Source: Candidatus Aminicenantota bacterium
Lineage (GTDB): Bacteria; Acidobacteriota; Aminicenantia; Aminicenantales; Saccharicenantaceae
Direction of reading: 5' to 3'
DNA length: 64,000 nt
Assembly: GCA_014360015.1 (NCBI GenBank)
Contig: JACIYJ010000007.1
Coordinates: 1-64,000 of the forward strand
The notes below the pieces were generated by a model. It was not told the DNA's origin. It made no database searches and was given only the letters and a program-made list of their open reading frames with translations. The translations under genes and the position numbers were made by a program. Shown here piece by piece: positions 36,590-51,911 of the stretch (the stretch's first letter is position 1; each line of letters begins with the position of its first letter).

Positions 36590-36602
36590 GCTCGCTCTCT
36601 TT

Positions 36603-36624
36603 TCAAGAGGTCAAGACCTCTTGA
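36603..36624. repeat. perfect inverted repeat between rplI and dnaB
   Basis: Ten-base arms (TCAAGAGGTC and GACCTCTTGA) around two bases, just ahead of the dnaB start on the minus strand. No T-run follows in the transcribed direction, so it is more likely a processing hairpin or protein site than a terminator. Confidence 0.5.
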
Positions 36625-36665
36625 TTTATCTCTATGAAGAGACGTAATTTAAGACTTTCCCGTTC

Positions 36666-37160
36666 TCAAGCCCTGTCTTTGGTCTGGTCTTCAGGCGTGG
36701 AGGTAGCGGCCGGAGCTTCTTCTTTGACCACCACCACTTTTATTTCTGCTCTATCTTCATGATAGACTTTTATCGGAACGGTAAAGGTTCCCAACCTTTT
36801 GATGGGTTCATCCAGAAGAATTTTTTTCTTGTCTATTTCAAAACCAAGTTTGGTCAACTCTTCGTGAATGTCGGCTGCTGAGACCGAGCCAAAGATGATG
36901 TCTTTTTCGCTGGACTTGCGGACAAAGGTCAGGGTAACTTCGTTCAGCTTCTTAATCAGCTCCTGATAGGTCAATCGCTCCTTTTCCAGTCTTTTCTTCA
37001 AAGCCTTCTGCTGGATCTCAACCATCTTCAGGTTAGAGGGAGTGACTTCCATGGCCAGCTTCCTGGGAATGAGATAATTCCTGGCAAAGCCTGGAGCTAC
37101 CTCGATAATATCACCTTTCCTTCCAACCTTTTCCACGTTCTCTAAGAGGATTATTTTCAT
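36666..37160 (-). CDS. rplI: 50S ribosomal protein L9
   Basis: 164 residues. The N-terminal rRNA-binding domain reads MKIILLENVEKVGRKGDIIEV and APGFARNYLIPRKLA, the family signature. A central helix links to the C-terminal domain (FGSVSAADIHEEL, VKVYHEDRAEIKVVVV). About 15 residues of Pro/Glu/Thr-rich tail extend beyond the usual end. AAGGAGG precedes the ATG. Confidence 0.97.
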   Translation of the reverse strand: MKIILLENVEKVGRKGDIIEVAPGFARNYLIPRKLAMEVTPSNLKMVEIQQKALKKRLEKERLTYQELIKKLNEVTLTFVRKSSEKDIIFGSVSAADIHEELTKLGFEIDKKKILLDEPIKRLGTFTVPIKVYHEDRAEIKVVVVKEEAPAATSTPEDQTKDRA

Positions 37161-37177
37161 CTGCTGCCTCCTTCTGC

Positions 37178-37444
37178 TCAGTCTTCAACAAATGGGAGTA
37201 AAGCCATGATTCGAGCTCTTTTGATGGCTCTGGCCAGCTTTCTCTGATGATAGGCACAGGTACCGGTCACCCGACGGGGAGCAATCTTGCCCCGGTCCGG
37301 AATGTATTTGCGCAGAATCTCTACGGCTTTATAATCGATATCCCTTAGGTTTCTCTCACAGAAACGACAGACTTTTTTCTTCGGTGGGAAAAATTTTCTG
37401 GCCGGAGTTTTTTCAGTTTTTTCTCTTTCTTCTTTGGTAGTCAT
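37178..37444 (-). CDS. rpsR: 30S ribosomal protein S18
   Basis: 88 residues. [21 protein letters not shown] then [27 protein letters not shown] is the S18 pattern. The Cys set (CxxC plus TCAYH) is the zinc-binding C+ form. It begins one base after rpsF ends, with GAGGAGG inside the rpsF end. Confidence 0.97.
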
Positions 37445-37445
37445 C

Positions 37446-37841
37446 TCACTTTACCTCCTCAGTTGAAGTCTCCTCTGGCTGAGTCGCAACTTCGACCTGT
37501 TCGACAGGTGCTGGCTCTTCAGCTTTAACTTTTTTCTTGCCTTTGACCAGGCCCCGGGGGTCTTTCTTGATAGTCATGAAGCGTAGGATAGAATCAGTCT
37601 GCTTAAATTTTCTTTCGAGCTCAGCTGGAACAGCCGGCGTGCCTTCATAGGTGAAGAAAACATAAAAACCTTCATTGAACCTTTTGATGGGGTAAGCCAG
37701 CTTTCTTTTCCCCCAGAGGTCTTGCTTGATCATTTTGCCCTTCTTGGCAGAAACTACTTCAGCCATCTGATTGATCAGGGTTGAAGTTTCTTCTTCTGAG
37801 AGGTTGGGGGCAATAATGAAGCCTGTTTCGTATTGATTCAT
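37446..37841 (-). CDS. rpsF: 30S ribosomal protein S6
   Basis: 131 residues. [48 protein letters not shown] and [18 protein letters not shown] match S6. An acidic, Glu-rich tail of about 30 residues extends the C-terminus. AAGGAGG precedes the ATG. First of the rpsF-rpsR-rplI-dnaB operon. Confidence 0.97.
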
Positions 37842-37865
37842 TTTATCCTCCTTATGGATTTATAG

Positions 37866-37887
37866 CCCCTCCGCTCAAGCGAAGGAG
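37866..37887 (-). promoter_or_regulatory. leader hairpin upstream of rpsF
   Basis: Read on the minus strand, CTCCTTCGC and GCGGAGGGG pair as a 9-bp stem (two or three G-U pairs) around TTGA, about 25 bases ahead of the rpsF start. rpsF leaders in many bacteria bind the S6:S18 complex for feedback control. This hairpin is in the right place, but the CCG bulge of that motif was not seen. Confidence 0.35.
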
Positions 37888-37928
37888 CAAGGAGTTGAAT
37901 TCCTATTTTAAACTATTTTAATAAAAAA

Positions 37929-38498
37929 TCAAACCTTTTTTCGGTTAAAAGAATTCATCGCCCGGCTGATCTGTCCCTCGATAATCATTTCCACCGCCTG
38001 ACAGGCTTTGTCCAGTGCCAGCTGGAGTTGTTCCTTTTCCTTATCAGAAAATTCTGAAAGAACATAACGAGCTGCATCCTGCCCTTCAGGTTTAGGCCCA
38101 ATGCCTACCCTGACTCTCGGGAAAATCCGGGTGCCGATTTCCTGAACAATGGACTTCATTCCTTTGTGGCTGCCAGGACCTCCCTGAGGACGAACCCGAA
38201 TTTCACCCAACTCTATATCCAGGTCATCATAAATGACTATGAGGTTCTCAGGATTAACTTTATAGCCAGCCAGTAACTCTTTGACCGCCAGCCCGCTCAG
38301 GTTCATATATGTTTGAGGCAGCGCCAGGACTATTTTGACTCCATCTTTTTTAGTTTCGGTCAGCTTCGACCTGAAAGCTTCGATCTTAAGCTGCAGGCCC
38401 CAGCTTCTGGCTAAGGATTTAACCACTAAGAAGCCGGCGTTGTGTCGGGTGTGGGCGTACTCAGAACCCGGATTGCCCAGACCGACAACCAGCCACAC
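37929..38498 (-). CDS. pth: peptidyl-tRNA hydrolase
   Basis: Recycles peptidyl-tRNA released from stalled ribosomes; 189 residues. VVGLGNPGSEYAHTRHNAGF contains the catalytic His, and VIYDDLDIELGEIRVRPQGGPGSHKGMKSI carries the Asp and tRNA-binding residues. It starts with GTG three bases after rplY ends. The rplY-pth order is conserved in many bacteria. Confidence 0.97.
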   Translation of the reverse strand: MWLVVGLGNPGSEYAHTRHNAGFLVVKSLARSWGLQLKIEAFRSKLTETKKDGVKIVLALPQTYMNLSGLAVKELLAGYKVNPENLIVIYDDLDIELGEIRVRPQGGPGSHKGMKSIVQEIGTRIFPRVRVGIGPKPEGQDAARYVLSEFSDKEKEQLQLALDKACQAVEMIIEGQISRAMNSFNRKKV

Positions 38499-38501
38499 AC
38501 C

Positions 38502-39170
38502 TCACCCCTTGCTTTCTTCTTCCTTTTCTTCTTTCTTGCGTTCTTTCTTAATGACCTCAGGTTCTTTCATCTCGGCGGCTTCAACCGCTTCTTCGGTCGT
38601 GGCAACCTCGGCTTCTTCAGCCACACTGCTAATAACCACGATAGCCGCATGCGGGTCGTGGAGAACTTTGATTCCAGCCGGTAGCTCAAGATTCTGGACT
38701 TTAAAGGATTGATGAAGGTGCAAATTGCTGATATCGACCTTGATGGCTTCGGGAATTTCTCGCGGCAAGCATTCAATGTCCAACTCTCTCAACAGGAAGT
38801 CAACTATACCACCTTCAGCCTTAACTCCAATCGGCTCACCCACCAGTTCCACAGGCACAGAAACCCGGACTGGTTTATCCATAGAAATCTGGATTAGGTC
38901 AACATGAGTCAGCTCATCAGTAATCGGATTAATCTGGACTTCTTTGATCATCACATCTCTTTCCTCAGAATCAAAAGCGACTTTGAAGATGGTGTTTTCA
39001 CCAGTCTCTGACTTGAGAATCTCGATGATGTCTTTTTTCCTTAGAGTCAGAGGAACATTGGCCACTGACTCACCATACAGAATAGCCGGGACAAAGCCTT
39101 GCCGTCTTAGCCGACCAGAAGCATTCTTTCCGAGCTGAGTTCTTTTTTCAGCTTTAATCACAAAAGTCAT
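38502..39170 (-). CDS. rplY: 50S ribosomal protein L25 (CTC family)
   Basis: 5S-rRNA-binding protein of 222 residues. The ATG at 39170 is preferred since AGGAGG lies just upstream; a TTG at 39191 would place that site inside the gene. The N-terminal L25 domain (KNASGRLRRQGFVPAILYG) is followed by the CTC beta-domain (THVDLIQISMDKPVRVSVPVEL) and a Glu/Lys-rich tail of about 40 residues. Confidence 0.95.
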   Translation of the reverse strand: MTFVIKAEKRTQLGKNASGRLRRQGFVPAILYGESVANVPLTLRKKDIIEILKSETGENTIFKVAFDSEERDVMIKEVQINPITDELTHVDLIQISMDKPVRVSVPVELVGEPIGVKAEGGIVDFLLRELDIECLPREIPEAIKVDISNLHLHQSFKVQNLELPAGIKVLHDPHAAIVVISSVAEEAEVATTEEAVEAAEMKEPEVIKKERKKEEKEEESKG

Positions 39171-39183
39171 TTCTTTCCTCCTC

Positions 39184-40113
39184 TTAAGCAAAAAGGGAAC
39201 TTACCGAGCTACCCTCGTTTATTCTTCTAATGGCTTCGCCAAAAAGCTCAGCCACTGATAGCACCTGGAATTTCTGACTGTTTCTGGCCTTTTCTTTGAG
39301 CGGAATGGTGTTAGTCACAAAGATTTTCTCTAGCCCTGACCTTTCGATCCGGTCTACCGCTTCACCTGAAAGAACCGGGTGAGTGCAGGCAGCAAAAATT
39401 CTTCTGGCGCCTTGCTGCTTCAAGGCATCCACTCCCAGAGTCAGAGTACCCGCTGTATCAACCATATCATCAAAAATCACCACGTCCTGGCCTCTGACAT
39501 CTCCGATCACATGGAGCACCTGGGCTACGTTGGGAGCGGGACGTCTTTTGTCGATGATGGCCAGCTTGGCATCCAGTCTCTTGGCAAAGACTCTGGCCCG
39601 TCCCACACCGCCAGCGTCCGGAGAGACAATGGTCAGATTTTCCAAGTTCAGGGTTCTGATATGATTGGCGATGACCGGCGCGGCCATCAGGTTATCCACG
39701 GGAATTGAGAAAAAACCCTGAATCTGCGGAGAATGCAGGTCCATGGTCAAGACCCGGTTAGCGCCAGCGGTCTCGAGAAGATCAGCGATCAGTCGGGCTG
39801 AAATCGGAACACGCGGCCGGTCCTTCCAGTCCTGCCGGGCATAAGCAAAATAAGGAATGACCGCAGTTATTCGACCGGCTGAAGCCCGCTTGAAAGCATC
39901 CAGCATGACAAAAAGTTCCATCAGGTGGAAATTTGCATCATAACAGCCGGATTGAATCACAAAAACATCTTCCCCGCGGACGTTCTCGTCAATGTAAAAG
40001 TGAATCTCACCATCAGAAAAACGGTCAAGCACACACCGACCCAGCTCGATTTTAAGATAGCTGGCTATTTCTCTGGCCAGTTGCGGGTTGGAAGATCCCG
40101 AAAATACTTTCAT
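39184..40113 (-). CDS. prs: ribose-phosphate pyrophosphokinase
   Basis: Makes PRPP from ribose 5-phosphate and ATP; 309 residues. FSDGEIHFYIDENVRGEDVFVIQS, FAYARQDWKDRPRVPISARLIADLL (flexible loop with catalytic Arg/Lys region), MDLHSPQIQGFF, SPDAGGVGRARVFAKRL and the PRPP loop IFDDMVDTAGTLT are all present. AAGGA precedes the ATG. Only 31 bases separate it from the tRNA-Gln gene upstream. Confidence 0.97.
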   Translation of the reverse strand: MKVFSGSSNPQLAREIASYLKIELGRCVLDRFSDGEIHFYIDENVRGEDVFVIQSGCYDANFHLMELFVMLDAFKRASAGRITAVIPYFAYARQDWKDRPRVPISARLIADLLETAGANRVLTMDLHSPQIQGFFSIPVDNLMAAPVIANHIRTLNLENLTIVSPDAGGVGRARVFAKRLDAKLAIIDKRRPAPNVAQVLHVIGDVRGQDVVIFDDMVDTAGTLTLGVDALKQQGARRIFAACTHPVLSGEAVDRIERSGLEKIFVTNTIPLKEKARNSQKFQVLSVAELFGEAIRRINEGSSVSSLFA

Positions 40114-40144
40114 AGCTCAATCCTTCTTAAGATTTTCAGCAAAG

Positions 40145-40217
40145 CTGGGGCGGGAGGACTCGAACCTCCAAATGACGGATCCAAAGTCCGTTGCCTTACC
40201 AGTTTGGCGACGCCCCA
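40145..40217 (-). tRNA. tRNA-Gln (anticodon TTG)
   Basis: Folds as a full cloverleaf of 73 bases: acceptor stem TGGGGCG/CGCCCCA, D-stem GCC/GGC, anticodon stem ACGGA/TCCGT with loop CTTTGGA, T-stem GGAGG/CCTCC with loop TTCGAGT, discriminator G. The 3' CCA is not encoded. Its 5' 22 bases overlap the end of ispE on the same strand. An ispE-tRNA-Gln-prs order is also known from pseudomonads. Confidence 0.96.
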
Positions 40218-41101
40218 GTAATGAGCTTTCGCCTATACAACTCCCTTCCAACTGTCTCCACCAGAAACACCTGGTATCTGGTCTGAAATCTATCCACAGC
40301 CTGTTGAGCCTGGCTTCTGTCAGTAAAGAGTCCGTATACTGCTGACCCGGAACCGCTCATCATAGATAATTCAGCTCCGCTGTTGGCCATCTCTTGTTTA
40401 ATCTCAGCCAGCTGCGGATATATTTTAAAAGTAACAAGTTCTAAATCATTTTCAAGGTGCCTAATTAACGAAATATCTTTAGCTTCTGAAAACTGAATAA
40501 TTTTACTTGCTTTATCCCTTGAAGTCAAGAATTCCTCCTGCCGGTCTAATTCCCTGTAAACCATGGCCGTGGAGACAGGAAAATCAGGAATGACCAGAAG
40601 TACCCAGCACTGTGGAAGGTCAGGAAGAGGATCAAGCTTTTCTCCTTTTCCCCGACCTAAGCAGAGTCCACCATAAAAAAAGTAAGGGATATCAGCTCCA
40701 AGAGAAGCCGCCAGAAAAAGCAACCGTTCGACCGAAAGGTTCAACTGCCAGAGACGGTTGAGGACCAGAATGGTCAGAGCAGCATTACTGCTACCCCCGG
40801 CCAGGCCGCGGCCGGGCGGAATATTCTTGTTAACCTCAATCTCCACTCCCTTCGGCGAACCACTTTCGTTTTTCAAAAGCAGAGCAGCTCTATAGATCAG
40901 ATTGGATTCATCCCAGGGCAAATCTGTCCGGTCACCCGAAACAAATATTTGGCCATCTGCACGCAGCCTGAAGACCAGACGATCCCTCAGGTCAACCGTC
41001 TGGAAAAGGGTGATGATTTCGTGATAACCGTCTTCTCTAAGTCCCAGAACTTCCAGCCCCAGGTTGATTTTGGCCAGCGAATTTAAAATTACCTCTTCCA
41101 T
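40196..41101 (-). CDS. ispE: 4-diphosphocytidyl-2-C-methyl-D-erythritol kinase
   Basis: GHMP kinase of the MEP isoprenoid pathway, 301 residues. LNSLAKINLGLEVLGLREDGYHEI is the N-terminal signature; the ATP loop reads PPGRGLAGGSSNAA; GSGSAVYGLF is the third GHMP motif. Its stop codon TAA (40196-40198) lies in the D-loop of tRNA-Gln, so the last seven codons are also tRNA sequence. It overlaps the lolB-like gene by 13 bases. Confidence 0.96.
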   Translation of the reverse strand: MEEVILNSLAKINLGLEVLGLREDGYHEIITLFQTVDLRDRLVFRLRADGQIFVSGDRTDLPWDESNLIYRAALLLKNESGSPKGVEIEVNKNIPPGRGLAGGSSNAALTILVLNRLWQLNLSVERLLFLAASLGADIPYFFYGGLCLGRGKGEKLDPLPDLPQCWVLLVIPDFPVSTAMVYRELDRQEEFLTSRDKASKIIQFSEAKDISLIRHLENDLELVTFKIYPQLAEIKQEMANSGAELSMMSGSGSAVYGLFTDRSQAQQAVDRFQTRYQVFLVETVGRELYRRKLITGASPNW

Positions 41102-41826
41102 AGCTCTGAGATTTCTCCCCAGGATAGCTGCTTAGTGCCCGCAGGAAAAGAAGGAGTAAAGAAATTCTCTTTCCATCGCTGATTGAATCGAAGCTTCAAC
41201 AACCTAACCCTGACTTTAAAATTTTCGGCTTCAAAATAGACTGTCTTGGGCATTTCGGTTCCCGGAAAAGTCTCTTTAATTTCAAATTTCAACCCGCCTT
41301 TCTTTCCACCCAAAACCCGCCCCTCCTCATCACGAAATACTTCCCAGCCATCATCAGGGGTAAAAACTGACCATCGGGCAGAAAAAACACCGACCAGCTC
41401 TGAAGCCTCCATTTCTCCACCCAGAAAATCGGCCGTTATCCACCGGCTCTCTCCCCGCCAAAAAACTTTCTCTTTCGGAATATAGAGAATTGCTTGCCTA
41501 CCGTTTAACCAGAGAAGCGATTCCAGGCCCCCAAAGGGATTAAAAATTTCCAGCCTCACCCTGTCTGGCAATTCAAAATAAAAACCGAGGCGCGACCGGC
41601 CTTCTCTTTCCGGACTCCGGACATAGAATGTAGCTTCTCCACCAAGATTATTGATTTCAGCAGGAAGAATTATTCTGGGAGATCGAGGGAGACAGGAAAC
41701 GGTCAGAAAAATATTCAGTAAGATGAAAAATGATAGAATAATTATGGAACCACCAACACTCCTTTGCTCAAAAGGCCGGTCAATCGAGCTTGAATCCGTA
41801 ATCTTCGACTTTTTTCTTTTTATCAT
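41089..41826 (-). CDS. LolB-like outer-membrane lipoprotein
   Basis: From the ATG at 41826 it is 245 residues; the start is unsure because no strong ribosome site is visible. A long basic stretch precedes a hydrophobic segment ending in the lipobox LTVSC. The mature part begins with PAEINNLGGEATFYVRSPER and has beta-rich repeats (RLGFYFELPDRVRLEIFNPFGG, ILYIPKEKVFWRGE) like the LolA/LolB fold. In proteobacteria lolB sits just before ispE, as here, which supports the call. If correct, it inserts lipoproteins into the outer membrane. Confidence 0.6.
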   Translation of the reverse strand: MIKRKKSKITDSSSIDRPFEQRSVGGSIIILSFFILLNIFLTVSCLPRSPRIILPAEINNLGGEATFYVRSPEREGRSRLGFYFELPDRVRLEIFNPFGGLESLLWLNGRQAILYIPKEKVFWRGESRWITADFLGGEMEASELVGVFSARWSVFTPDDGWEVFRDEEGRVLGGKKGGLKFEIKETFPGTEMPKTVYFEAENFKVRVRLLKLRFNQRWKENFFTPSFPAGTKQLSWGEISELWKR

Positions 41827-42037
41827 CTTCTGAAAGAGCTGTCTCTCCAGGTTTTTTCGCCTGACCCCCAAGATCGAATTTATAATCCCTGGATATAGCT
41901 TTTATTTTCTTCTTTCTGGTCACCGGATAGAAAGGTGAACGAATCCTCTTACCAAAACAGGAAAGGTTGGGATTGATGATCATCAGGAGAATAAATAATC
42001 CAAAGATGATCAGAATAACATAAATCGTCCAGCTCAT
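41780..42037 (-). CDS. small single-helix membrane protein
   Basis: 85 residues: a hydrophobic helix (about 4-24, IYVILIIFGLFILLMIINPN), then a basic region (KRIRSPFYPVTRKKKIK) and a charged C-terminus with several Lys and Asp. Its end overlaps the start of the lolB-like gene by 47 bases, so the two are likely cotranslated. No family was recognised. Confidence 0.65.
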   Translation of the reverse strand: MSWTIYVILIIFGLFILLMIINPNLSCFGKRIRSPFYPVTRKKKIKAISRDYKFDLGGQAKKPGETALSEDDKKKKVEDYGFKLD

Positions 42038-42100
42038 TTTTGCCTTCCCTCAGTTATTATAAATTTATCGCCGCGATTTAGCAACCAAACAGCCTGAAAA

Positions 42101-43546
42101 TTATTCATGAAAAACCACAGCTTCAAATTTATAGAGCGAACCAGGTTTTTTCCAGGCGTTATCCGGCAATCCGGCTTTGCGGCAAACCTCTTTAAGGAAA
42201 GTGTCTCGGTTCCAGCCAAATTCAGTAGCCACCTGTGGCAGAAGTAGCCCACTCCGTCCCCCCTGTTTAATCACCAGGCCGTGCTGTCCGACCCTTATTT
42301 CTGAGACATTATTGACCGGCTCCAGAGGGCTCAACACAGAAATTTCTATTTCCACTTTCGGCAGCTCGTTTTTTTGTAATGGAGGAAACCTCGGGTCCTG
42401 GGTGGCCGCATAAACTGCTGCCTGGATGATGCTCTGATAGAGCGGGAATATCGGTTCTATAAAACCGATGCAGCCCCGAAGCTCTCCATTTTCTTTAATG
42501 GTGACGAAGGCTCCCTTTTTTTCAAAAAATTTTGGATTGGTGGGAGTATAAATCAGCAGTTCTCCAGTCTTCAGATAATTTTCAATCGCCTTTCTGGCCA
42601 GGGATAGAAGCTCTTTTTTCTCATCAGCGGTGAGGTCAAACGTCCCGGCTTTTTTTCCTATATAAACAGCAGCCGATAGATAACCCACCACCTGAGTTGT
42701 TGGTCCGCCGGCAGCCGTGGAGTCACCATATTCAAGCACCTCTACCTTAGCCGGTCCGAGTTTTTGAGCATAGAGAAGCAGGGCCAGGACCGGACCGCCT
42801 CCGCACATGATGTTTTCCGCTCGTTCTACTTTACGCATCAGTGTCTTCGTGTCCAGAGCTTTTATCAAGTTAATGGTCCGGCTATCCAGATCATTGGCTT
42901 CATTTTTGGAAAGAAAATGAGACATATCAGTTGAAGCCACCACCATGGCTTTTTTCCCAGCCAGGACCTTAGCCAGGGCTGCAGCCAGAGCTCTAATTGT
43001 TCTCTCAGTTTGAAAGCCCATCACCACAGGCACAATCCGGGCTTGGGGAAAAATCTTCTGGATGAAAGGTATCTGAACTTCTATCGAGTGTTCTTTCTGG
43101 TGAGCCTCCGGGATATAACCAAATCCCGAAACCCTGGATAACTCCCGAGCCAGTTGTTCATCAACTTCAGTCACTCCCAAGGGAGTTTCAAACCCTCCTT
43201 TTAAATAAATAGAACAGCCCTCAAAGCCGTATTGATGTGAAGGGCCGATGATGACCACAGTGGAGACCTCCTGGTTTTTAATCGGGCGATAACCGCAGGC
43301 AGCTATCCGGCCGGAATAAACGTATCCAGCATGTGGAGAGATAATACCCACGACTTCACCGGACACTGGCTTCACTTCTGCCGACTCGAGGTAAATATCG
43401 AGCAGGCGTGAAAGACGAGCGGGATCAGCTTCATAGAACTGTCCAGCCCAGACCGCTTTTCTGATTCCCTGGGCTTCAGCTAAAACCGAGAACGAAAAAA
43501 TCCAGACAAATAATAAAAGTCCGGAAAGCCAGAGTTGCCTTTTCAT
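42101..43546 (-). CDS. exported Memo-AMMECR1 fusion protein
   Basis: 481 residues from the ATG at 43546, chosen because GGAGG lies five bases ahead and a clean signal peptide follows (MKRQLWLSGLLLFVWIFSFS...EAQ). The Memo domain (about 25-285) has SPHAGYVYSGRIAACGYR, VVIIGPSHQYGF, KEHSIEVQIPFI, STDMSHFLS and MCGGGPVLALLL, the His and Cys pocket of the family. The C-terminal AMMECR1 domain (about 305-481) has LRGCIGFIEPIFPLYQ. This is the B and A part of the AmmeMemoRadiSam system joined in one chain. The radical-SAM partner is not in the window. Function in bacteria is unknown. Confidence 0.88.
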   Translation of the reverse strand: MKRQLWLSGLLLFVWIFSFSVLAEAQGIRKAVWAGQFYEADPARLSRLLDIYLESAEVKPVSGEVVGIISPHAGYVYSGRIAACGYRPIKNQEVSTVVIIGPSHQYGFEGCSIYLKGGFETPLGVTEVDEQLARELSRVSGFGYIPEAHQKEHSIEVQIPFIQKIFPQARIVPVVMGFQTERTIRALAAALAKVLAGKKAMVVASTDMSHFLSKNEANDLDSRTINLIKALDTKTLMRKVERAENIMCGGGPVLALLLYAQKLGPAKVEVLEYGDSTAAGGPTTQVVGYLSAAVYIGKKAGTFDLTADEKKELLSLARKAIENYLKTGELLIYTPTNPKFFEKKGAFVTIKENGELRGCIGFIEPIFPLYQSIIQAAVYAATQDPRFPPLQKNELPKVEIEISVLSPLEPVNNVSEIRVGQHGLVIKQGGRSGLLLPQVATEFGWNRDTFLKEVCRKAGLPDNAWKKPGSLYKFEAVVFHE

Positions 43547-43689
43547 CGTTGCCTCCACAGAATAAATATTAATCTTTTGTGGGGCTTGTGGCAAATAAAC
43601 AAAAAATTTTTAAAAATCTTGTAAAAATTATCACCTTAAATGTTGACAATTAATAAAATTTAGTGAAAAATTTATCAAAGAAGGCAGAG

Positions 43690-43824
43690 ATGAAAAGATT
43701 TCTAAAATTCCTGTTAATCGTTCTCAGCATCTTTTCTACTTTTTTGATTGGCTTCCACTTTGGTAAAGAAAAAGAAAGAGCCCGAATCCCCAAGTTCCAG
43801 GACGACTCAGAAAAAACTTTTTAA
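43690..43824 (+). CDS. possible small secreted or membrane protein
   Basis: A 44-residue frame with ATG start: MKRFLKFLLIVLSIFSTFLI forms a basic N-terminus and hydrophobic helix, followed by a charged tail (GKEKERARIPKFQDDSEKTF). The spacing and base use look like a real small gene, with an AAGGCAGAG purine run ahead of the ATG. No family recognised. It could be chance, since the region is AT-rich. Confidence 0.4.
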   Translation: MKRFLKFLLIVLSIFSTFLIGFHFGKEKERARIPKFQDDSEKTF

Positions 43825-43916
43825 AAAATAATTTTTACTATAAATTTAAGGGGGGTAAGGCAAATTTCCAGGAAGCCGGGGTTGAAGTCTGTCTGGGTTA
43901 GTTCAAAGCTGAATTC

Positions 43917-43945
43917 TTACCCGTAAGCTATTTTTCTGCTATAAT
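43917..43945 (+). promoter_or_regulatory. probable promoter of fmdB
   Basis: A perfect TATAAT (43940-43945) with TTACCC (43917-43922) 17 bases upstream. It lies 35 bases before the fmdB start. The -35 is weak and overlaps a short palindrome (CTTAC/GTAAG). Confidence 0.55.
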
Positions 43946-43979
43946 AAATGCTTAAAATCTGGTTCGAGGAGATGCGACC

Positions 43980-44273
43980 ATGCCGATCTACGAGTACCGA
44001 TGTAAAAAATGTCATCGCCAGTTTGAGATTTTACAAAAACTCAATGAAAAAAGTCTTGATAAATGCCCCGAGTGCGGTGGCCAGCTGACCAAGTTGATTT
44101 CTTCTCCCGCTATCCAGTTCAAAGGGTCTGGCTGGTACATCACCGATTATGCTCATAAAAACTCGCCATCGGGTGGGAATGGCCACAACGGCCATAAGAA
44201 TGGGAAAGAAGCAACCACCAGTTCTTCTAAAAAACTTGAAAAGAAAGAAGAAAGCCGGGCTGCGGACAAATGA
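43980..44273 (+). CDS. FmdB-family zinc ribbon protein
   Basis: 97 residues. The N-terminal 45 residues form the Cys4 ribbon of the FmdB/CxxC_CXXC_SSSS family (MPIYEYRCKKCHRQFEI and CPECGGQLTKLIS), followed by AIQFKGSGWYITDY, also typical. The tail is Ser/Lys/Gly/Asn-rich and disordered. GAGGAG lies upstream of the ATG. Role unknown; often called a putative regulatory protein. Confidence 0.9.
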   Translation: MPIYEYRCKKCHRQFEILQKLNEKSLDKCPECGGQLTKLISSPAIQFKGSGWYITDYAHKNSPSGGNGHNGHKNGKEATTSSSKKLEKKEESRAADK

Positions 44274-44315
44274 ATCTTTTTGACATCCACCCGGCCCGAG
44301 TTTAGAATTAATTTG

Positions 44316-45314
44316 ATGAAAATCCTGGTTTATCTCCCCCGCCCCCTTGGAGCTGCAGTTTTATCAATTCCCTTTCTCCGAGCCTTGCAGGACAATTTCC
44401 CGGCCAGCCAGATATCGCTCGTCACCAATGAAAAATTCGACCCTTTCTTCAGGACTATTCTTCCTGAATACAGCCAGATTCCTCTACCAGAAATCAAAGA
44501 TATTCCCAGGCTTAAAACTGCTTCTTCCCGGCTCAAAAAGATGGGCTTCGATGTGGGTATTCTCCTCGACGATTCTTTTCCCTCAGCCCTTCTCTTTTAT
44601 CTGGCCAGGATTCCTGATCGCTGGGGCTACGACCGCGAAGGCCGGGGTTTTATGCTGACCAGGAGAATGTCAATCAAAGCCACAGACCCTCAGCTTCATC
44701 TCAAAGATTATTACCTAAACATTCTTAATAAACTCGGCTTAAAGGTCGAAGACAAGGACTCAAGGCTACATCTTCCGGAAGACTGTCTTTCCCGGGCCAG
44801 TGAAAAACTGAAACAGGCTGGACTTAATCTGGAAAAGCCAATAATAGCGGTTAAGCCTGGGTCAAGTTATGGTCGGGCCAGAGTCTGGCCGGTTGACCAT
44901 CAAATTGAGCTCATAAAAAAACTGGCCGACCTATCGGTTCAGGTGATCCTAATAGGCTCGGCGGCCAGCCAGGAAGTCAGCCAAAAAATCAGCGCCCGGC
45001 TGGATGGTCGGGTGGTTGACCTAAGCGGTCAAATAAGCCTTCAAGAGATTCCAGGAATCATCGCTAAAGCCCGAATTTACCTGGGCAACGACAGCGGCTT
45101 AACTCATTTAGCCAATTTTCTCGGCGTGCCGGTAGTCGGGCTTTATGGACCGACTGACCCCCAGGTTTGTGGCCCCGTCCGACAGCCTTCTGTGGTCTTA
45201 AAAAAACCGGTACCTTGTTCTCCCTGCTCTTATAAAACCTGTCCCTATGACCATCGCTGCCTTAATAACATCACCGTCGAAGAAGTATTACAGGCAATAT
45301 CTGCCTATCTTTGA
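44316..45314 (+). CDS. glycosyltransferase family 9, heptosyltransferase-like
   Basis: 332 residues from the ATG at 44316, where the protein begins MKILVYLPRPLGAAVLSIPFLRAL, the usual GT9 N-terminus; a TTG at 44280 is less likely. Later blocks include IIAVKPGSSYGRARVWPV (nucleotide-sugar side) and NDSGLTHLANFLGVPVVGLYGPTDP, the strongest GT9 signature. CSPCSYKTCPYDHRCL is the Cys-rich stretch seen in WaaF enzymes. It probably adds ADP-heptose to LPS core on the cytoplasmic face. No other LPS gene is nearby. Confidence 0.88.
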   Translation: MKILVYLPRPLGAAVLSIPFLRALQDNFPASQISLVTNEKFDPFFRTILPEYSQIPLPEIKDIPRLKTASSRLKKMGFDVGILLDDSFPSALLFYLARIPDRWGYDREGRGFMLTRRMSIKATDPQLHLKDYYLNILNKLGLKVEDKDSRLHLPEDCLSRASEKLKQAGLNLEKPIIAVKPGSSYGRARVWPVDHQIELIKKLADLSVQVILIGSAASQEVSQKISARLDGRVVDLSGQISLQEIPGIIAKARIYLGNDSGLTHLANFLGVPVVGLYGPTDPQVCGPVRQPSVVLKKPVPCSPCSYKTCPYDHRCLNNITVEEVLQAISAYL

Positions 45315-45358
45315 AAGCTATGGGGCAACCGATAGGCTGAATTCATCCTGGCAAGTAA

Positions 45359-47518
45359 ATGATTCGATTTGATGATATAGTCGAAAAAATTCAGGGCAAA
45401 TACTCGGAAAAAGATATCCGTCTCCTTCAAAAAGCCTACATTTTTGCCGCCCGAGCTCACAAAGGTCAGACCCGGCGCTCTGGTGAACCATACCTGAGCC
45501 ATCCGCTTGAGGTTACCAATATTCTAGCCGAGATGAACCTCGACTTGACGACCCTGATCGCCGGGCTGCTTCACGACGTTCCGGAAGACACCGACGTTAC
45601 TATCGCTGAGATCAGAGAAAATTTCGGGAAAGAAGTGGCTACCTTAGTCGAAGGCGTGACCAAAATCGGTCGGGTCGAAGATGCCTCCCCTGAAGAAACC
45701 AGAGCCGAGACCATCAGAAAAATCATTCTGGCCATGACTGATGACCTGCGCGTGATTTTCATCAAACTGGCCGACCGCTGGCACAACCTGAAGACTCTCC
45801 ATTTTCTGAGTGAAGAGAAGCAAAAAAGAATCGCCCAGGAAACTCTGGAAATCTATGCGCCCATTGCCAATCGGCTGGGCATGGGCCGAATCCGGGCTGA
45901 GCTGGAAGACCTTGCCTTCCGCTATGTTGAGCCGGATGAATACTTCAGGATGGTAGCGCTCGTTGAACCGGAACTAAAAAAGGGCGAAAAACAACTGAAA
46001 AAGCTGAAAAAAGAAATGGAACAGCTGATGAAAGAAAACGGCATCCCCGCCGAAATTCAATCCCGAATAAAAAGGCTTTACAGCGTTTACTCCAAGATGA
46101 AGAAAAAGGGTGTGGACTTTGACCAGGTCTATGATTTCCTGGCTTTAAGGATAATCACGGATTCCGTCAAAAACTGCTATGCCGCCTTAGGCATCATCCA
46201 CCAGAGATGGCCGCATCTGCCGCAGAGATTCAGAGACTTCATCGCCATGCCCAAGCCCAACCTTTACCAATCGCTTCACACCACCATCATCACTGAAAAT
46301 AAGCAAACCTTTGAAATCCAGATCAGAACCAGAGAGATGCATGAGCTAGCCGAAAATGGAATTGCCGCCCATTGGAAATACAAAGAAGGTGCTCCGACCG
46401 GACTGGACAGTGAAGACCAGAGACTCCAGTGGCTCAGAGAAATAGCTGCACTGTTCAGCGAGCAGAAAAACCCGAAGGAATTTCTGAAAAACCTGAAAAT
46501 CAACTTGATCCCTGAAGAAATCTATGCTTTTACTCCGAAAGGAAAGGTCATCAATCTGCCGCCCGGGGCCACAGCCCTGGATTTTGCCTTTAAAATTCAT
46601 ACCGAAATTGGTTTGAAGGCCAAAGAAGCCAAGATAAATGGTGAAGTGATGCCGCTCAAGACCCCACTTAGAACCGGTGACATCGTCGAGATCATCACTT
46701 CGCCTGACAGAATTCCCCATCGCAGCTGGCTCAACTGGGTAGCCACAGCATCGGCCAGACAGAGCATCAAAAAGTATCTCAATCTCAAGAGTAGGAGCAA
46801 GGCCATCGCTCTGGGAAAAAAACTCTGGGAAAAAGAATCCAGGAAGTATGAGTTTCCTCCTGAGCTTCGGTCGGAGGAAGCACTGAAAGAAAAAATTTCC
46901 CGGGAGTTCAAGCTTCGTCTGCACAGCCTGGAAGATTTTTATCTTCTGGCTGGTCTGGGCAAATTGGTCATCAACGGAAAATTTATGGAAAGAATCATCT
47001 CCGGGGCGACTCCAGCAACTGAAGGTCAGCCCGGGTTTCTGAAAAAAGTGGTTGACCGGATTACCGGGAGAAGCCCTTCATCCGGGCTGGTGATTAAAAA
47101 CCCGGAAGATCAGATGATCAGCCTGGCCCGCTGCTGCACCCCGATCAAGGGCGAACCGGTAGTTGGCTATCTGACTGCAGGCAAAGGGTTGACTATCCAT
47201 GCCCAGCGCTGCTATTTGGTTAACAAAGAAATTCTGGACAGTCAGCGGCTGGTAGAAGTTTCCTGGGACCCTGACTACCAGGGCACCTTCAAAGCCCGGT
47301 TGCTAGTCAGATCTCAGGATTCCCCAGGGGTTCTGGCCAGGGTGGCCACCGCTGTGGCTGAGCTCAGAGGAAATATTTCCAGGGCAGAAGTCAACACTAC
47401 CAGCGATGGAAAAGCCACAATTTCCTTAGAAATAGTGATAAACGACATCAATCATCTGGATGCGATCATAAAGAAGATTTCCCGGTTAAAAGAAATTTAT
47501 TCCGTAGAAAGAGATTAA
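45359..47518 (+). CDS. rel: (p)ppGpp synthetase/hydrolase (Rel/SpoT)
   Basis: Master enzyme of the stringent response, 719 residues. The hydrolase HD domain is intact (His34, His48, and HDVPED at 72-77). The synthetase domain has RFRDFIAMPKPNLYQSLHT and EIQIRTREMHELAENGIAAHWKYK. Then come the TGS domain (IYAFTPKGKVINLPPGATALDFAF), the zinc-finger region (RCCTPIKGEPVVGYLTAGKGLTIH) and a C-terminal ACT domain. Both activities should be present. It converges on rpmB, the stops being two bases apart. Confidence 0.96.
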   Translation: MIRFDDIVEKIQGKYSEKDIRLLQKAYIFAARAHKGQTRRSGEPYLSHPLEVTNILAEMNLDLTTLIAGLLHDVPEDTDVTIAEIRENFGKEVATLVEGVTKIGRVEDASPEETRAETIRKIILAMTDDLRVIFIKLADRWHNLKTLHFLSEEKQKRIAQETLEIYAPIANRLGMGRIRAELEDLAFRYVEPDEYFRMVALVEPELKKGEKQLKKLKKEMEQLMKENGIPAEIQSRIKRLYSVYSKMKKKGVDFDQVYDFLALRIITDSVKNCYAALGIIHQRWPHLPQRFRDFIAMPKPNLYQSLHTTIITENKQTFEIQIRTREMHELAENGIAAHWKYKEGAPTGLDSEDQRLQWLREIAALFSEQKNPKEFLKNLKINLIPEEIYAFTPKGKVINLPPGATALDFAFKIHTEIGLKAKEAKINGEVMPLKTPLRTGDIVEIITSPDRIPHRSWLNWVATASARQSIKKYLNLKSRSKAIALGKKLWEKESRKYEFPPELRSEEALKEKISREFKLRLHSLEDFYLLAGLGKLVINGKFMERIISGATPATEGQPGFLKKVVDRITGRSPSSGLVIKNPEDQMISLARCCTPIKGEPVVGYLTAGKGLTIHAQRCYLVNKEILDSQRLVEVSWDPDYQGTFKARLLVRSQDSPGVLARVATAVAELRGNISRAEVNTTSDGKATISLEIVINDINHLDAIIKKISRLKEIYSVERD

Positions 47519-47520
47519 CC

Positions 47521-47712
47521 TCAAACTGCTTTCTGAACACGACCCGAGCGAAGGCACCGAGTGCAAACCCAGATTCTTCTGACTCCGTTATCGGTCTTGG
47601 CTTTGACTCTTTGGAGATTGACACTCCACTTCCTCCGAGAAGCTTTGTTAGAATGGCTGATGCTATGACCGAATATCGGTCCTTTATGACAGATATCGCA
47701 GGCTCTTGGCAT
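47521..47712 (-). CDS. rpmB: 50S ribosomal protein L28
   Basis: 63 residues: MPRACDICHKGPIFGHSISHSNKASRRKW then VKAKTDNGVRRIWVCTRCLRSGRV. CxxC pairs at each end make it the zinc-binding form. It is single-gene and convergent with rel. Confidence 0.97.
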   Translation of the reverse strand: MPRACDICHKGPIFGHSISHSNKASRRKWSVNLQRVKAKTDNGVRRIWVCTRCLRSGRVQKAV

Positions 47713-47778
47713 CGTCTTTCTCTCTTTCCTCAGAATTTTCAGTAAGTTATTGAACTAATTGTATAGCATAATTTTAAT

Positions 47779-47811
47779 CTGAAAGCAACTTTCAGTCTTT
47801 TTTTTCTTTTT
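47779..47811 (+). terminator. Rho-independent terminator on the plus strand
   Basis: A 7-bp stem (CTGAAAG/CTTTCAG) with a three-base loop is followed by a run of T (TCTTTTTTTTTC). It lies beyond rpmB, so it would end a rel transcript that runs antisense through all of rpmB. On the minus strand the tail is not T-rich. Confidence 0.65.
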
Positions 47812-47869
47812 AAGAATAGGTATGATTATATCTGTGTAAGGGAAAATCAACCATCTGCAGTCAGAACCG

Positions 47870-48253
47870 ATGAACACCAGGAGAGGTTTTGGAGTCAGGG
47901 TCGGGGTAACCCTGATCATCATTCTGGTCTCTTTTGGCTGTCACCAAAATCCTGTTAAAACCCACCTTCAGGTCGGAGTGTGGGCTGCCCAGAACGACCT
48001 CTGGGAAGAAGCCATTTTCCACTGGCAAAAAGTCTTAGAGATAAAGCCCGAATCCGCTGCTGCTCATAACAACCTGGGGGTAGCCTATGAGAAAAAGGGG
48101 TTATGGGAGGAAGCTCTGAAGGAATATGAACAGGCCCTAAAATTAGCTCCCAAAAACACCCACATCGAATCAAACTTGAAAAAACTCAAAGAAAAAATGA
48201 AGAGTGCCCCCCAGACTGAATCAAAGGAAAAAACTTCAGGGAAAGACAGTTAA
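47870..48253 (+). CDS. TPR lipoprotein
   Basis: 127 residues with a signal peptide and lipobox VSFGC (Cys24). Two tetratricopeptide repeats follow (about 38-105), with NDLWEEAIFHWQKVLEIKPES, AAHNNLGVAYEKKGLWEEALKEYE and QALKLAPKN. The C-terminus is Lys/Ser-rich. It is probably an outer-membrane scaffold protein. Its stop shares one base with the next start (TAATG). Confidence 0.85.
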   Translation: MNTRRGFGVRVGVTLIIILVSFGCHQNPVKTHLQVGVWAAQNDLWEEAIFHWQKVLEIKPESAAAHNNLGVAYEKKGLWEEALKEYEQALKLAPKNTHIESNLKKLKEKMKSAPQTESKEKTSGKDS

Positions 48254-48942
48254 TGAGGCCTCGATTCAAATTAATTTTTCTTTTTATCGTTTTAAGCTGC
48301 AGCCTTTCCTCCCTGACTTCCTGTCTTTCAGAAAATGCGCTTAAGATTAAAGCTGACTTTCCGCGATACACAAACCTGAAACTCGACGACTTTCCGGCTG
48401 TTGTCCTGACCAATTTTCTGGTAGAGCAGAGCCCGCCCGGCTTTGACCTAAACCAGGAACTTATCACTTACTTTCTGGCAGAATTAAAACAGAAATACCG
48501 TGGCCAGCTAACTCAGAAAAATATCGTCTGGCCAGAAGAAAAAAAGTGGGATGACCCTCAGTTCTGGCACAATCTGCTCGGAAATGATAGCCAAGGGCTG
48601 GTTCTCACCGGGACGGCCTCCTTCAAACAAGAGCTCCGGAAAACCCTTGGCTCTAAGGATTACCGGGAAATTGATGGGCCTTTTAGACTGGGTCAACCAT
48701 CGCTCGAAGAAAGAACGGTCTCAACGCTGACCGTCAGGTTTTTTCTGGTCAGGCCGGAGGATGGTCAGGTGCTGCTGAAAAAAGAATACAAAGAAACCAG
48801 AACGGCAGAGAACTTTCGAGAACCGGCGGGCATCGCTTTCTTCGAACTCGTCCAGCTGGTCAAGACAAAATTTTTCAACCTGCTTTTTGCCAGAGAATTG
48901 CCAGAAGAGCGCTACCTTCTGGTCAGGGATTCTGAACAATGA
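48253..48942 (+). CDS. lipoprotein of unknown function
   Basis: 229 residues with a signal peptide and lipobox SLTSC (Cys24). The mature part has mixed alpha/beta elements (DDFPAVVLTNFLVEQ, NQELITYFLAELKQK, GLVLTGTASFKQEL, STLTVRFFLVRPEDGQVLLKKEY), which resembles the CsgG/TolB N-terminal style of fold. The family was not recognised. Start and stop overlap both neighbours, so it belongs to a three-gene operon with the TPR lipoprotein and the large protease-like protein. Confidence 0.7.
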   Translation: MRPRFKLIFLFIVLSCSLSSLTSCLSENALKIKADFPRYTNLKLDDFPAVVLTNFLVEQSPPGFDLNQELITYFLAELKQKYRGQLTQKNIVWPEEKKWDDPQFWHNLLGNDSQGLVLTGTASFKQELRKTLGSKDYREIDGPFRLGQPSLEERTVSTLTVRFFLVRPEDGQVLLKKEYKETRTAENFREPAGIAFFELVQLVKTKFFNLLFARELPEERYLLVRDSEQ

Positions 48943-51911
48943 AAAAAATGTTCAGCCAATCAGTCATCTTTTACCTGGCGCTGGGACTGTTGATGCTCAG
49001 TTCAATACCTTCTTTATTTTCTCAGATTGCTTTTACCCGGTTTTACGGAAAGAACAAAGTTCAGTACAGCCATTTTCGCTGGAATTATCTAACCACCGAC
49101 CATTTCAAGATTTATTTTTATTCCCGGAACGACGACACCCTGAAACTGCTGATCTCAATTACTGAATCTGCATATAAAAAGCTCAGTCAGTTATTGAAAC
49201 ACGAATTGAAAGAAAAGGTCCCGCTGATTTTTTATGAAACATATACTGACTTCGAGCAAACCAACCTCTTTCAGGTGTCAGAAGGAGTGCTCGGAGTTGC
49301 CGAGCCGGTCCTTCACCGGATCGCCATCCACGGAGACCTGCCTCCGGACGAGCTGCAGACTCTGATTGAACATGAGCTGTCGCACATCTTCCAGTTCGAT
49401 TTCCTCTGGGGCAAGCAGGAAGGCTCTCTCTATGCTCTGCGCGAACCACCGCTCTGGACGATGGAAGGACTTTCTGAATTCATTACCGGAAAATGGTCTT
49501 CCTGGTCAAAGATGATTGTCAGGGATGCCGTTTTAAACGACCGGGTGCCGGAGTTTTCGGAAAGCGGAGAACTGGTTTCCCGTTATCCATTGCCTCGCGA
49601 ACCGGCATATGACTTCGGCCATGCCCTATATGAGTTCATTCAGGAAAAATTCGGCCCGAATGCCATCAACGAATTCTGGAGGGCTCTTAAAAATTTTCCA
49701 AGGGTTTCTCTGTTCACCAGGTCAGACCCATGGAAAAGATCCTTTGGAATAACTCTAAAAGAATTCTCTCAGGCGTTCAGGAGATACTTAAGAGAAAAGC
49801 ATAGGAAATTTTATTTAAGAGAAAATCCCGCTGATTACAGTCAGCCGCTGGGACCTGAGTTTCCGTCGAATCCTTATTATTTTGCCTTTTCTGCAGCCCT
49901 GTCGCCTTCGGGAGAGTTGGCCGCGGTCCTGACTTACAATGCCAGAAATTACGACCTGAACATTGTTCTGGTTTCAATCAAAGATGGCCGGATAGTCAAG
50001 AATCTCACCCCTGGTTACACTACCCGATACCAGTCCATAAAATTTCAGATAGACCCTTCCTATGGCCAGAACCTCTCCTGGTCAAAAGACGGAAAAACTA
50101 TCGCCTTCTTCGTCAGAAAAGGACAAAAATATGCTCTGGCCCTGATGGATGCTTTTTCGGGGAAAATTTTGCGCCAGATAAAAATTCCTCTGGATGAACC
50201 GGCTTCACCTTCTTTCCATCCAACAGAAGAAGCTTTAATTTTTACCGCCTTCAAAGCCGGCCGAAGGGATATTTTCCGGATAGACTTGAAGTCCGGAGAG
50301 CTCAGGAACCTGACCGATGATAAGGTTTATGAAAAATCAGCCGAATACTCGCCAGACGGCAAGACAATTGTTTACACCATAAAAGATGGAGAATATGACC
50401 GGATAGTAATTTCACCGGCATTAAATCTCCAAGAAAAAACCAAGCTGACTTCGGGCCTGGAGAATGCTATCTGTCCTCATTTTTCGCCAGACGGGCAAAG
50501 AATCTTCTATTCCGGCGATGGACTTGAAGCTTTTAACATCTATTCCATCGACCTGAAGACCGGAGAAAGGCGGCGTTATACTGATGTCCAGACTGGAAAT
50601 TTCTTCCCATCTCCGGTTCCGGGAAAAGACAGACTTTTGGTTTTTTGCTCATTCAACAAAGGAAGTTTTCAATTGTTCAAAGCTGAGCCGGAAGGAGTAC
50701 CCGAAACTCCCGTTACGCCTGAACCATTTGAACCGGCAACTAATTCTCTTCTTAGCCAAGCAGAAAAAATTCAACTCGACCCGAACAAGTTTTCCTCATA
50801 TCAGGGTATCGGCAAACTTTATCTGACATACAGACCACCAATTCAGGCCATCCTGACTTCAGACGGTTCATTCTATGGCTCTTCAGCAATGGCTTTTTCC
50901 GACCTGCTGGCTGACCATAACTTTATCTTTACCTTTTCCCAGTTCCGGGAATTCAGATCTTACTATTTTTCTTATCTTAACCAGAAAAGGCGATTTCAGT
51001 ATATGTTAACTGCTTTTCAATACAACTTGTTCTACTATCCACCGCTCTACTATTATGACCCGATGCTTTATGAATATCTGACCTACCGCGATGCCCTGGC
51101 TGTTAGAAGCTTAAGCGGCCTAAGCTTTGATGCCTACTATCCCTTTTCTCTTTATTATCGAGCCGAATTCAGTCTGAGCTTCAGCCGTTATTCAGAAGAC
51201 TTTTTCAACCCAGCTTTGCTGGCATTTTATGGACGCGGCTCTTACGGCTATTTCACTAATGGCAATTATCTATCTGCCTCCCTCGCCCTGGTCGGCGAAA
51301 CAACTTTTTTTAAAGAATTCGGACCTCTTGACGGACACACTTTCCGGCTGGCCATAACTCAGTCCATTCCGCTCACCAGCAGTTACATAAGTAATACCAC
51401 CGTCACCGCAGATGTCAGAAAATATTTTTATTTAGGAGCTGATTCTCTGATAGCCCTGCGCTGGGAAGGTTTTCTCAGCCGGGGAAAGACACCCTTTGCC
51501 TTTTACTGGGGTGGAAACAATCAGGTTCGCTCAGCCAATTTCTACAACATCATCGGCAACGAAGGCTGGTATTTCAATGCCGAACTTCGCTTTCCTCTGA
51601 TCAACTATGCCTCAACCATTATCGGCACGCTCGGACCGGTGCGTGGAGTTGTCTTTTTTGATTTGACCAGAGCCAGGGTGAAAGGTTACCCGGCCCTCTT
51701 CTATGAATACATAATTGACGAAAACCAGCTCCGCCTTCAGAGCTACGAGGCTATAGGTTCGCTGGGCTATGGCTTTCAGGTATTTTTTCTTGGCCTGCCG
51801 CTCCATTTTGACCTGGTCAAGCCTTTAGTCCTGGAAAAAATGAGCGAATTGACAGGGCTTAAGTCAAAAGGAAACCTCCGGTTGCGTTTCTGGATCGGCT
51901 ACGATTTCTAA
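48939..51911 (+). CDS. gluzincin peptidase-like, beta-propeller, beta-barrel protein
   Basis: 990 residues in three parts after a signal peptide (1-29). The peptidase region (about 40-300) has HELSH at 145-149 and a second metal site EGLSE at 176-180, the gluzincin pattern of the MA clan. Residues 310-600 hold TolB/PD40 propeller repeats (SWSKDGKTIAFFV, EYSPDGKTIVYTI, HFSPDGQRIFYSG). The last 370 residues are aromatic-rich amphipathic strands ending FWIGYDF, like an outer-membrane barrel. This layout is seen in other Gram-negatives; its substrate is unknown. It overlaps the lipoprotein gene by four bases (ATGA). Confidence 0.85.
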   Translation: MKKMFSQSVIFYLALGLLMLSSIPSLFSQIAFTRFYGKNKVQYSHFRWNYLTTDHFKIYFYSRNDDTLKLLISITESAYKKLSQLLKHELKEKVPLIFYETYTDFEQTNLFQVSEGVLGVAEPVLHRIAIHGDLPPDELQTLIEHELSHIFQFDFLWGKQEGSLYALREPPLWTMEGLSEFITGKWSSWSKMIVRDAVLNDRVPEFSESGELVSRYPLPREPAYDFGHALYEFIQEKFGPNAINEFWRALKNFPRVSLFTRSDPWKRSFGITLKEFSQAFRRYLREKHRKFYLRENPADYSQPLGPEFPSNPYYFAFSAALSPSGELAAVLTYNARNYDLNIVLVSIKDGRIVKNLTPGYTTRYQSIKFQIDPSYGQNLSWSKDGKTIAFFVRKGQKYALALMDAFSGKILRQIKIPLDEPASPSFHPTEEALIFTAFKAGRRDIFRIDLKSGELRNLTDDKVYEKSAEYSPDGKTIVYTIKDGEYDRIVISPALNLQEKTKLTSGLENAICPHFSPDGQRIFYSGDGLEAFNIYSIDLKTGERRRYTDVQTGNFFPSPVPGKDRLLVFCSFNKGSFQLFKAEPEGVPETPVTPEPFEPATNSLLSQAEKIQLDPNKFSSYQGIGKLYLTYRPPIQAILTSDGSFYGSSAMAFSDLLADHNFIFTFSQFREFRSYYFSYLNQKRRFQYMLTAFQYNLFYYPPLYYYDPMLYEYLTYRDALAVRSLSGLSFDAYYPFSLYYRAEFSLSFSRYSEDFFNPALLAFYGRGSYGYFTNGNYLSASLALVGETTFFKEFGPLDGHTFRLAITQSIPLTSSYISNTTVTADVRKYFYLGADSLIALRWEGFLSRGKTPFAFYWGGNNQVRSANFYNIIGNEGWYFNAELRFPLINYASTIIGTLGPVRGVVFFDLTRARVKGYPALFYEYIIDENQLRLQSYEAIGSLGYGFQVFFLGLPLHFDLVKPLVLEKMSELTGLKSKGNLRLRFWIGYDF

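Follow-up and report, generated by a model that had tools for sequence, protein, structure and literature searches.

A Memo-AMMECR1 fusion with a signal peptide as a likely part of an exported AmmeMemoRadiSam variant

Memo and AMMECR1 are proteins whose conservation extends from prokaryotes to humans. In the DNA analysed here (the window, a stretch of 64,000 nucleotides), one open reading frame encodes both behind an N-terminus that reads as a signal peptide, which raises the question of where the fused protein works and with which partners. The features concerned all lie on the minus strand:

42101..43546, minus strand: predicted exported Memo-AMMECR1 fusion, 481 aa plus stop, from the ATG at 43546 to the stop at 42101
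43552..43556, minus strand: GGAGG, Shine-Dalgarno-like, five bases upstream of the ATG
43472..43546, minus strand: Sec-type signal peptide, residues 1-25, ending in AEA (read from the sequence; a separate helix, 2-25, in the AlphaFold2 model)
42671..43453, minus strand: Memo domain, residues 32-292 (Pfam), in which H72, H104 and C248 align with the MEMO1 iron ligands
42110..42604, minus strand: AMMECR1 domain, residues 315-479, with the LRGCIG motif (Pfam and alignment)

The union of the two domains in one reading frame, claimed in the preliminary description, was confirmed by Pfam matches to Memo (PF01875, E 5.7e-67) and AMMECR1 (PF01871, E 5e-58) and by scores above the cut-off for both NCBIfam AmmeMemoSam_B and AmmeMemoSam_A; in the AMMECR1 half, the domain match and the LRGCIG motif are both present. 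The signal peptide claimed with it also held. The N-terminus, MKRQLWLSGLLLFVWIFSFSVLAEAQG, has a basic start, then a hydrophobic core, then a site between AEA and Q (signal and site were assigned by eye), with GGAGG placed for the ATG. A longer form of the frame, starting at TTG (42101-43594), is in the open reading frame list as well. We consider it very improbable that the hydrophobic segment reflects a mis-called start and that the protein is cytoplasmic. Fusions without a signal do exist, numbering 18 of 75 in named genomes with 2 more truncated (best 80 of at least 592 stretches), but the segment is present in 43 of 43 fusions from the phylum, and a start downstream of it, the case raised earlier as the one that would overturn export, is disfavoured: the first ATG, GTG or TTG after the initial ATG is a GTG at codon 58. 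Such a start would truncate the Memo domain, since R29, G35 and Y38, residues that never vary among 30 aligned fusions, all precede codon 58.

The AlphaFold2 model (480 of 481 residues) had a mean pLDDT of 93.6 and a pTM of 0.65, the latter leaving the mutual packing of the two domains unsure. Foldseek matched it to MEMO1 (E 1e-23) and AMMECR1 structures and, more weakly, to extradiol dioxygenases. Human MEMO1 (PDB 7kq8, 3bcz) shares the Memo fold and is reported to bind iron through H49, H81 and C244 (PMC11081632); H72, H104 and C248 of the fusion align with these residues, given an inferred chain-numbering offset of 3, and are invariant across the 30 aligned fusions. The fusion differs from MEMO1 in its low identity (~24% by Foldseek), its export and its attached AMMECR1. 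Among 56 Memo positions conserved at 95% in the cytosolic set, 25 are kept in exported proteins, including the metal ligands, D207 and H210. The fused pair is not rare: among named loci (the best 80 of at least 592), 75 encode it in one open reading frame.

A radical-SAM partner had been described as absent locally. This is correct for the part of the window that was read (36000-50000), but not for the genome (30 contigs, 94.4% complete), where two radical-SAM proteins exceed the TIGR04337 cut-off and one, at C12:39616-40743, bears a Tat-type signal; the idea that the genome lacks the partner was rejected. The C12 enzyme has 375 aa and the N-terminus MDRRDFLKCSLAGCSLFLVGKG, with the Tat-type signal MDRRDFLK, in which R3 and R4 precede the hydrophobic stretch and are conserved at 90% or more in 30 aligned enzymes. 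Initiation at a TTG, codon 23, could yield a form without most of the signal. Judged by sequence, the protein is a member of the radical SAM superfamily (PF04055 match) with an intact CxxxCxxC for a 4Fe-4S cluster, its cysteines C122, C126 and C129 being invariant in the 30 aligned enzymes. The nearest solved relative by sequence is pyruvate formate-lyase activating enzyme (PDB 3c8f, E 2.5e-6), a cytosolic protein, from which the partner differs in having a Tat-type signal and, at either end, additional Cys motifs. The gene is part of an apparent operon: 17 bases separate it from DUF362 on one side, and on the other it overlaps, by 43 bases as called, the gene of a 730-aa membrane protein. The second radical-SAM protein (339 aa) has no N-terminal extension, and the genome also encodes one Memo (268 aa) and one AMMECR1, both without a signal, so two sets apparently coexist. 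The window gene accounts for one half of an exported set whose genes are separated in this lineage.

How closely fusion and enzyme are tied was assessed in 119 genomes of the phylum, searched with both. Full-length fusions and exported-type enzymes were counted by hand from the search tables; the count includes the fusion of G093 and two contig-end enzyme fragments (G021, G086) and excludes G074, where the match contains stops and the Memo has no signal. Both proteins were found in 40 genomes, the fusion alone in 3 (G007, G045, G096), the enzyme alone in 1 (G021) and neither in 75 (Fisher p 6e-27, kinship ignored). With genes placed by tblastn, both lay in one fetched stretch in 30 of these 40 genomes (28 scored and 2 truncated), which makes the tie a tight one, where a loose one was first supposed. 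Gene orders included fusion-DUF362-enzyme and enzyme-fusion-membrane protein; in the window's own genome and its close relatives the two genes are apart. Of 134 loci searched, the fusion was present in 125, the enzyme in 79, the membrane protein in 48 and DUF362 in 28. Other frequent neighbour clusters were mostly antisense-looking or scattered, and the substrate is therefore not readable from gene context.

We scored Memo signals by a hydropathy peak of at least 1.75, and enzyme signals by an RR or KR motif with a hydrophobic stretch or by a hydropathy peak of 2.2. The Memo rule was satisfied by every one of the 43 fusions held by the 54 phylum loci, and the enzyme rule by 26 of 28 linked enzymes, the others, L076 (RRDALKF) and L096 (RRRF, at a contig edge), being assigned by eye. 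Among controls from the same survey's genomes, 1 of 21 enzymes (L223) and 1 of 21 unfused Memos (L237) satisfied the rules. L223, from genome G005, is a second radical-SAM protein on a long tree branch, and its RREF Tat-type signal reads as real.

Beyond the phylum survey, we scanned named genomes with the 30 aligned fusions and analysed the best 80 of at least 592 confirmed stretches. Signals occur on 55 of the 75 fusions among these 80, under 21 origin labels, some of which are unranked titles. A named strain noticed among the 80, Pontiella sulfatireligans (L187), carries a fusion that the rule scores as signal-less. Of 37 scored adjacent pairs in the same best 80, 29 have signals on both proteins (28 by rule and L182 by inspection), 7 on neither and 1 is discordant (L172); the truncated enzymes L179 and L184 were left out. 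The 28 rule-exported enzymes of these best 80 comprise 14 RR, 9 KR and 5 Sec/TM types, and the N-termini of L140 (RR by rule) and L191 (KR by rule) resemble Sec/TM; at least 8 linked enzymes have KR instead of RR, a group drawn mostly from Bacteroidota. The regex and hydropathy rules overlooked L182 in addition to L076 and L096, while L172 remained discordant on inspection. Combining the phylum set with these best 80 of at least 592, signals agree in 64 of 65 pairs. On the Memo tree this co-variation amounts to 2 contrasts (starred branches) or 3 (all), with a sign test p of 0.5. Four signal-less Bacteroidota pairs cluster on both trees, within or beside exported pairs, as if both proteins had lost their signals jointly. 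The tendency of the two signals to be present or absent jointly suggests a common pool on which the fusion and the enzyme act. One record titled Altiarchaeota archaeon (L170) holds an exported pair with the membrane protein, perhaps through a binning error.

A tree of 98 enzymes set 75 rows opposite 23 (SH-aLRT 92), exported opposite cytosolic. The larger side comprises 64 enzymes labelled exported, 10 labelled without a signal and the control L223, and the smaller side 20 controls plus L193, L199 and L200. The 10 unsignalled labels include L011, unscored by the script, the rule misses L076, L096 and L182, and, where present, the truncated or unscored ends of L179 and L184; the remainder are signal-less or discordant. 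Of 56 enzyme positions conserved at 95% in the 23 cytosolic sequences, 68 exported ones retain 50 at 90%. A starred clade of 16 enzymes carries CxxCH in all 15 untruncated members, after the Tat signal and before the first Cys motif, while the motif appears in 0 of 82 other enzyme N-regions and arises in 0.16% of trials with shuffled linkers. Of 32 genomes tested for cytochrome c assembly genes (PF01578), 31 have them, among them all 10 haem-clade genomes in that set. Attachment of haem c normally takes place outside the cytoplasm. With CxxCH, an exported protein and the assembly genes, this enzyme clade has, on sequence grounds, the marks of a c-type cytochrome; the enzyme of the window's own genome lies outside it.

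Of 56 exported pairs, 32 have the gene for the membrane protein encoded beside the enzyme within the fetched locus, against 0 of 7 signal-less pairs (Fisher p 0.005, with kinship ignored, contig ends uncorrected and the duplicate L158 removed); among enzyme loci of the window's class it was present in 9 of 9 tested, own genome included. AlphaFold2 predicted seven helices, a domain and seven further helices (pLDDT 92.3, pTM 0.92). In VIA-align, human SV2A (9okg) aligned over residues 1-727 (Z 26.8, rmsd 4.4, 341 aligned) and spermidine synthases (3anx) gave Z 29.3; SV2A is, we take it, an MFS protein, and from these rows the partner is predicted to be MFS-like. Its middle domain also matches spermidine synthases in sequence (E 1e-18). 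Lys plus Arg averages 16.1 in the N-terminal-side loops and 2.8 in the others (domain excluded, 32 relatives), with the same direction of bias in 32 of 32 aligned proteins, so by the positive-inside rule the SAM-type domain is predicted to lie outside. The nucleoside-pocket acids E309 and D340 are each kept in 31 of 32 sequences, whereas the acids of the DxxDP segment, which are presumably catalytic in spermidine synthase, are mostly replaced (D at the first position in 4 of 32; E in 16 and D in 3 of 32 at the second). Polyamine aminopropyltransferases (SpeE and PRK03612-like membrane forms) resemble this middle domain (fold Z 29) and are its best NCBIfam matches, all below cut-off, but the partner differs from them in its fourteen helices around the domain, its mostly replaced DxxDP acids and its tie to an exported radical-SAM enzyme. 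We infer that it carries or presents SAM. None of the 14 haem-clade pairs has DUF362 nearby, against 17 of the 42 others, a difference that clade structure alone may explain. A role for DUF362 as electron carrier is unsupported; the copy in the window's genome has 3 Cys in 309 aa.

Taken together, we think it probable that the window gene is a component of an exported AmmeMemoRadiSam variant that runs outside the cytoplasm. The extracytoplasmic location, as the preliminary description had it, we judge likely, short of proof. The fusion would cross by Sec and mature in the periplasm, where its Memo site may bind iron; the radical-SAM enzyme would fold with its iron-sulfur cluster in the cytoplasm, be exported by Tat, and outside make the 5'-deoxyadenosyl radical, acting with or on the fusion, while the signal-less paralogous set of the same genome would do the ordinary job inside. 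Points against this reading are the discordant pair L172, the 2-3 independent contrasts, the 3 phylum genomes in which the fusion was found and an exported-type enzyme was not, the Sec/TM-like or KR N-termini, the TTG at codon 23 in the enzyme of the window's genome, and the Tat machinery: TatC was found in 31 of 32 genomes of a tested set that includes the window's own assembly and in 14 of 14 congeners, but not in that assembly itself (94.4% complete), where TatA is present.

The Sec/TM-like N-termini, found on five to seven linked enzymes, together with KR in place of RR in a mostly Bacteroidota group, would suit a different arrangement: the N-terminal segments would anchor the proteins in the membrane, with the catalytic parts kept at the cytoplasmic face for ordinary but membrane-bound radical-SAM chemistry. 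For some enzymes such an anchor could mean an orientation towards the cytoplasm, but as a general account we find this quite improbable: RR motifs predominate elsewhere, CxxCH is located past the signal, export is indicated by the AEA site of the fusion and, in some relatives, by lipobox-like ends, and the SAM-type domain of the membrane partner is predicted outside. Somewhat better placed, though still unlikely in our estimation, is an arrangement in which the fusion alone acts outside as a metal-binding or dioxygenase-like protein, with the enzyme modifying or loading it before export or merely travelling along. The kept Memo metal ligands, the iron reported to be bound by MEMO1 (PMC11081632), the fold match to extradiol dioxygenases and the three phylum genomes with a fusion and no exported-type enzyme found all fit it. 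Yet the enzyme bears its own export signal, with a haem-c motif in one clade, and an exported-type enzyme is present in 40 of the 43 fusion-bearing phylum genomes. Moreover, Sec substrates cross the membrane unfolded, which makes loading of the fusion before export awkward.

Within the exported-system reading, we tentatively entertain a full radical-SAM pathway outside, comprising an MFS-type carrier, the Tat-exported enzyme and the secreted fusion as partner or substrate. The carrier's periplasmic SAM-binding domain might supply SAM or clear nucleoside products, and the exported enzyme would make its radical outside, with its own c-haem as a possible electron entry in one clade. To our knowledge, radical-SAM chemistry is commonly taken as cytoplasmic. 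If the enzyme works outside, SAM and electrons need routes across the membrane, and the candidates for both are those named here; export also confines the search for a substrate to the envelope.

The known AmmeMemoRadiSam system (NCBIfam TIGR04335, TIGR04336, TIGR04337) is named for the co-occurrence of its three proteins, and all three components score over cut-off in the window's genome. The set described here differs in that Memo and AMMECR1 are fused, fusion and enzyme have export signals, the enzyme is joined by DUF362 and a membrane protein, and one enzyme clade has CxxCH. In the open-access literature we found no shared function for the trio and nothing relevant on exported or periplasmic radical-SAM enzymes, which is weak evidence of absence since the search covered open-access papers only. 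As far as these searches go, this is a widespread, undescribed exported variant of a known three-protein system, and the export signals on fusion and enzyme suggest that many bacteria run a known intracellular chemistry outside the inner membrane.

Further Memo-family proteins are encoded elsewhere in the window's genome. One on contig C25 (L008:1288-2451, plus strand; 387 aa as called) has a hydrophobic N-terminal segment and no AMMECR1, and another on C26 (L007:1159-3388, plus strand) has an additional N-terminal part and is followed by an open reading frame that we take to be agmatinase-like. Divergent from the DUF362/enzyme/membrane-protein operon is the gene of an exported-looking protein (L011:11760-12701, plus strand), relatives of which occupy the equivalent place in L114, L115 and L116.
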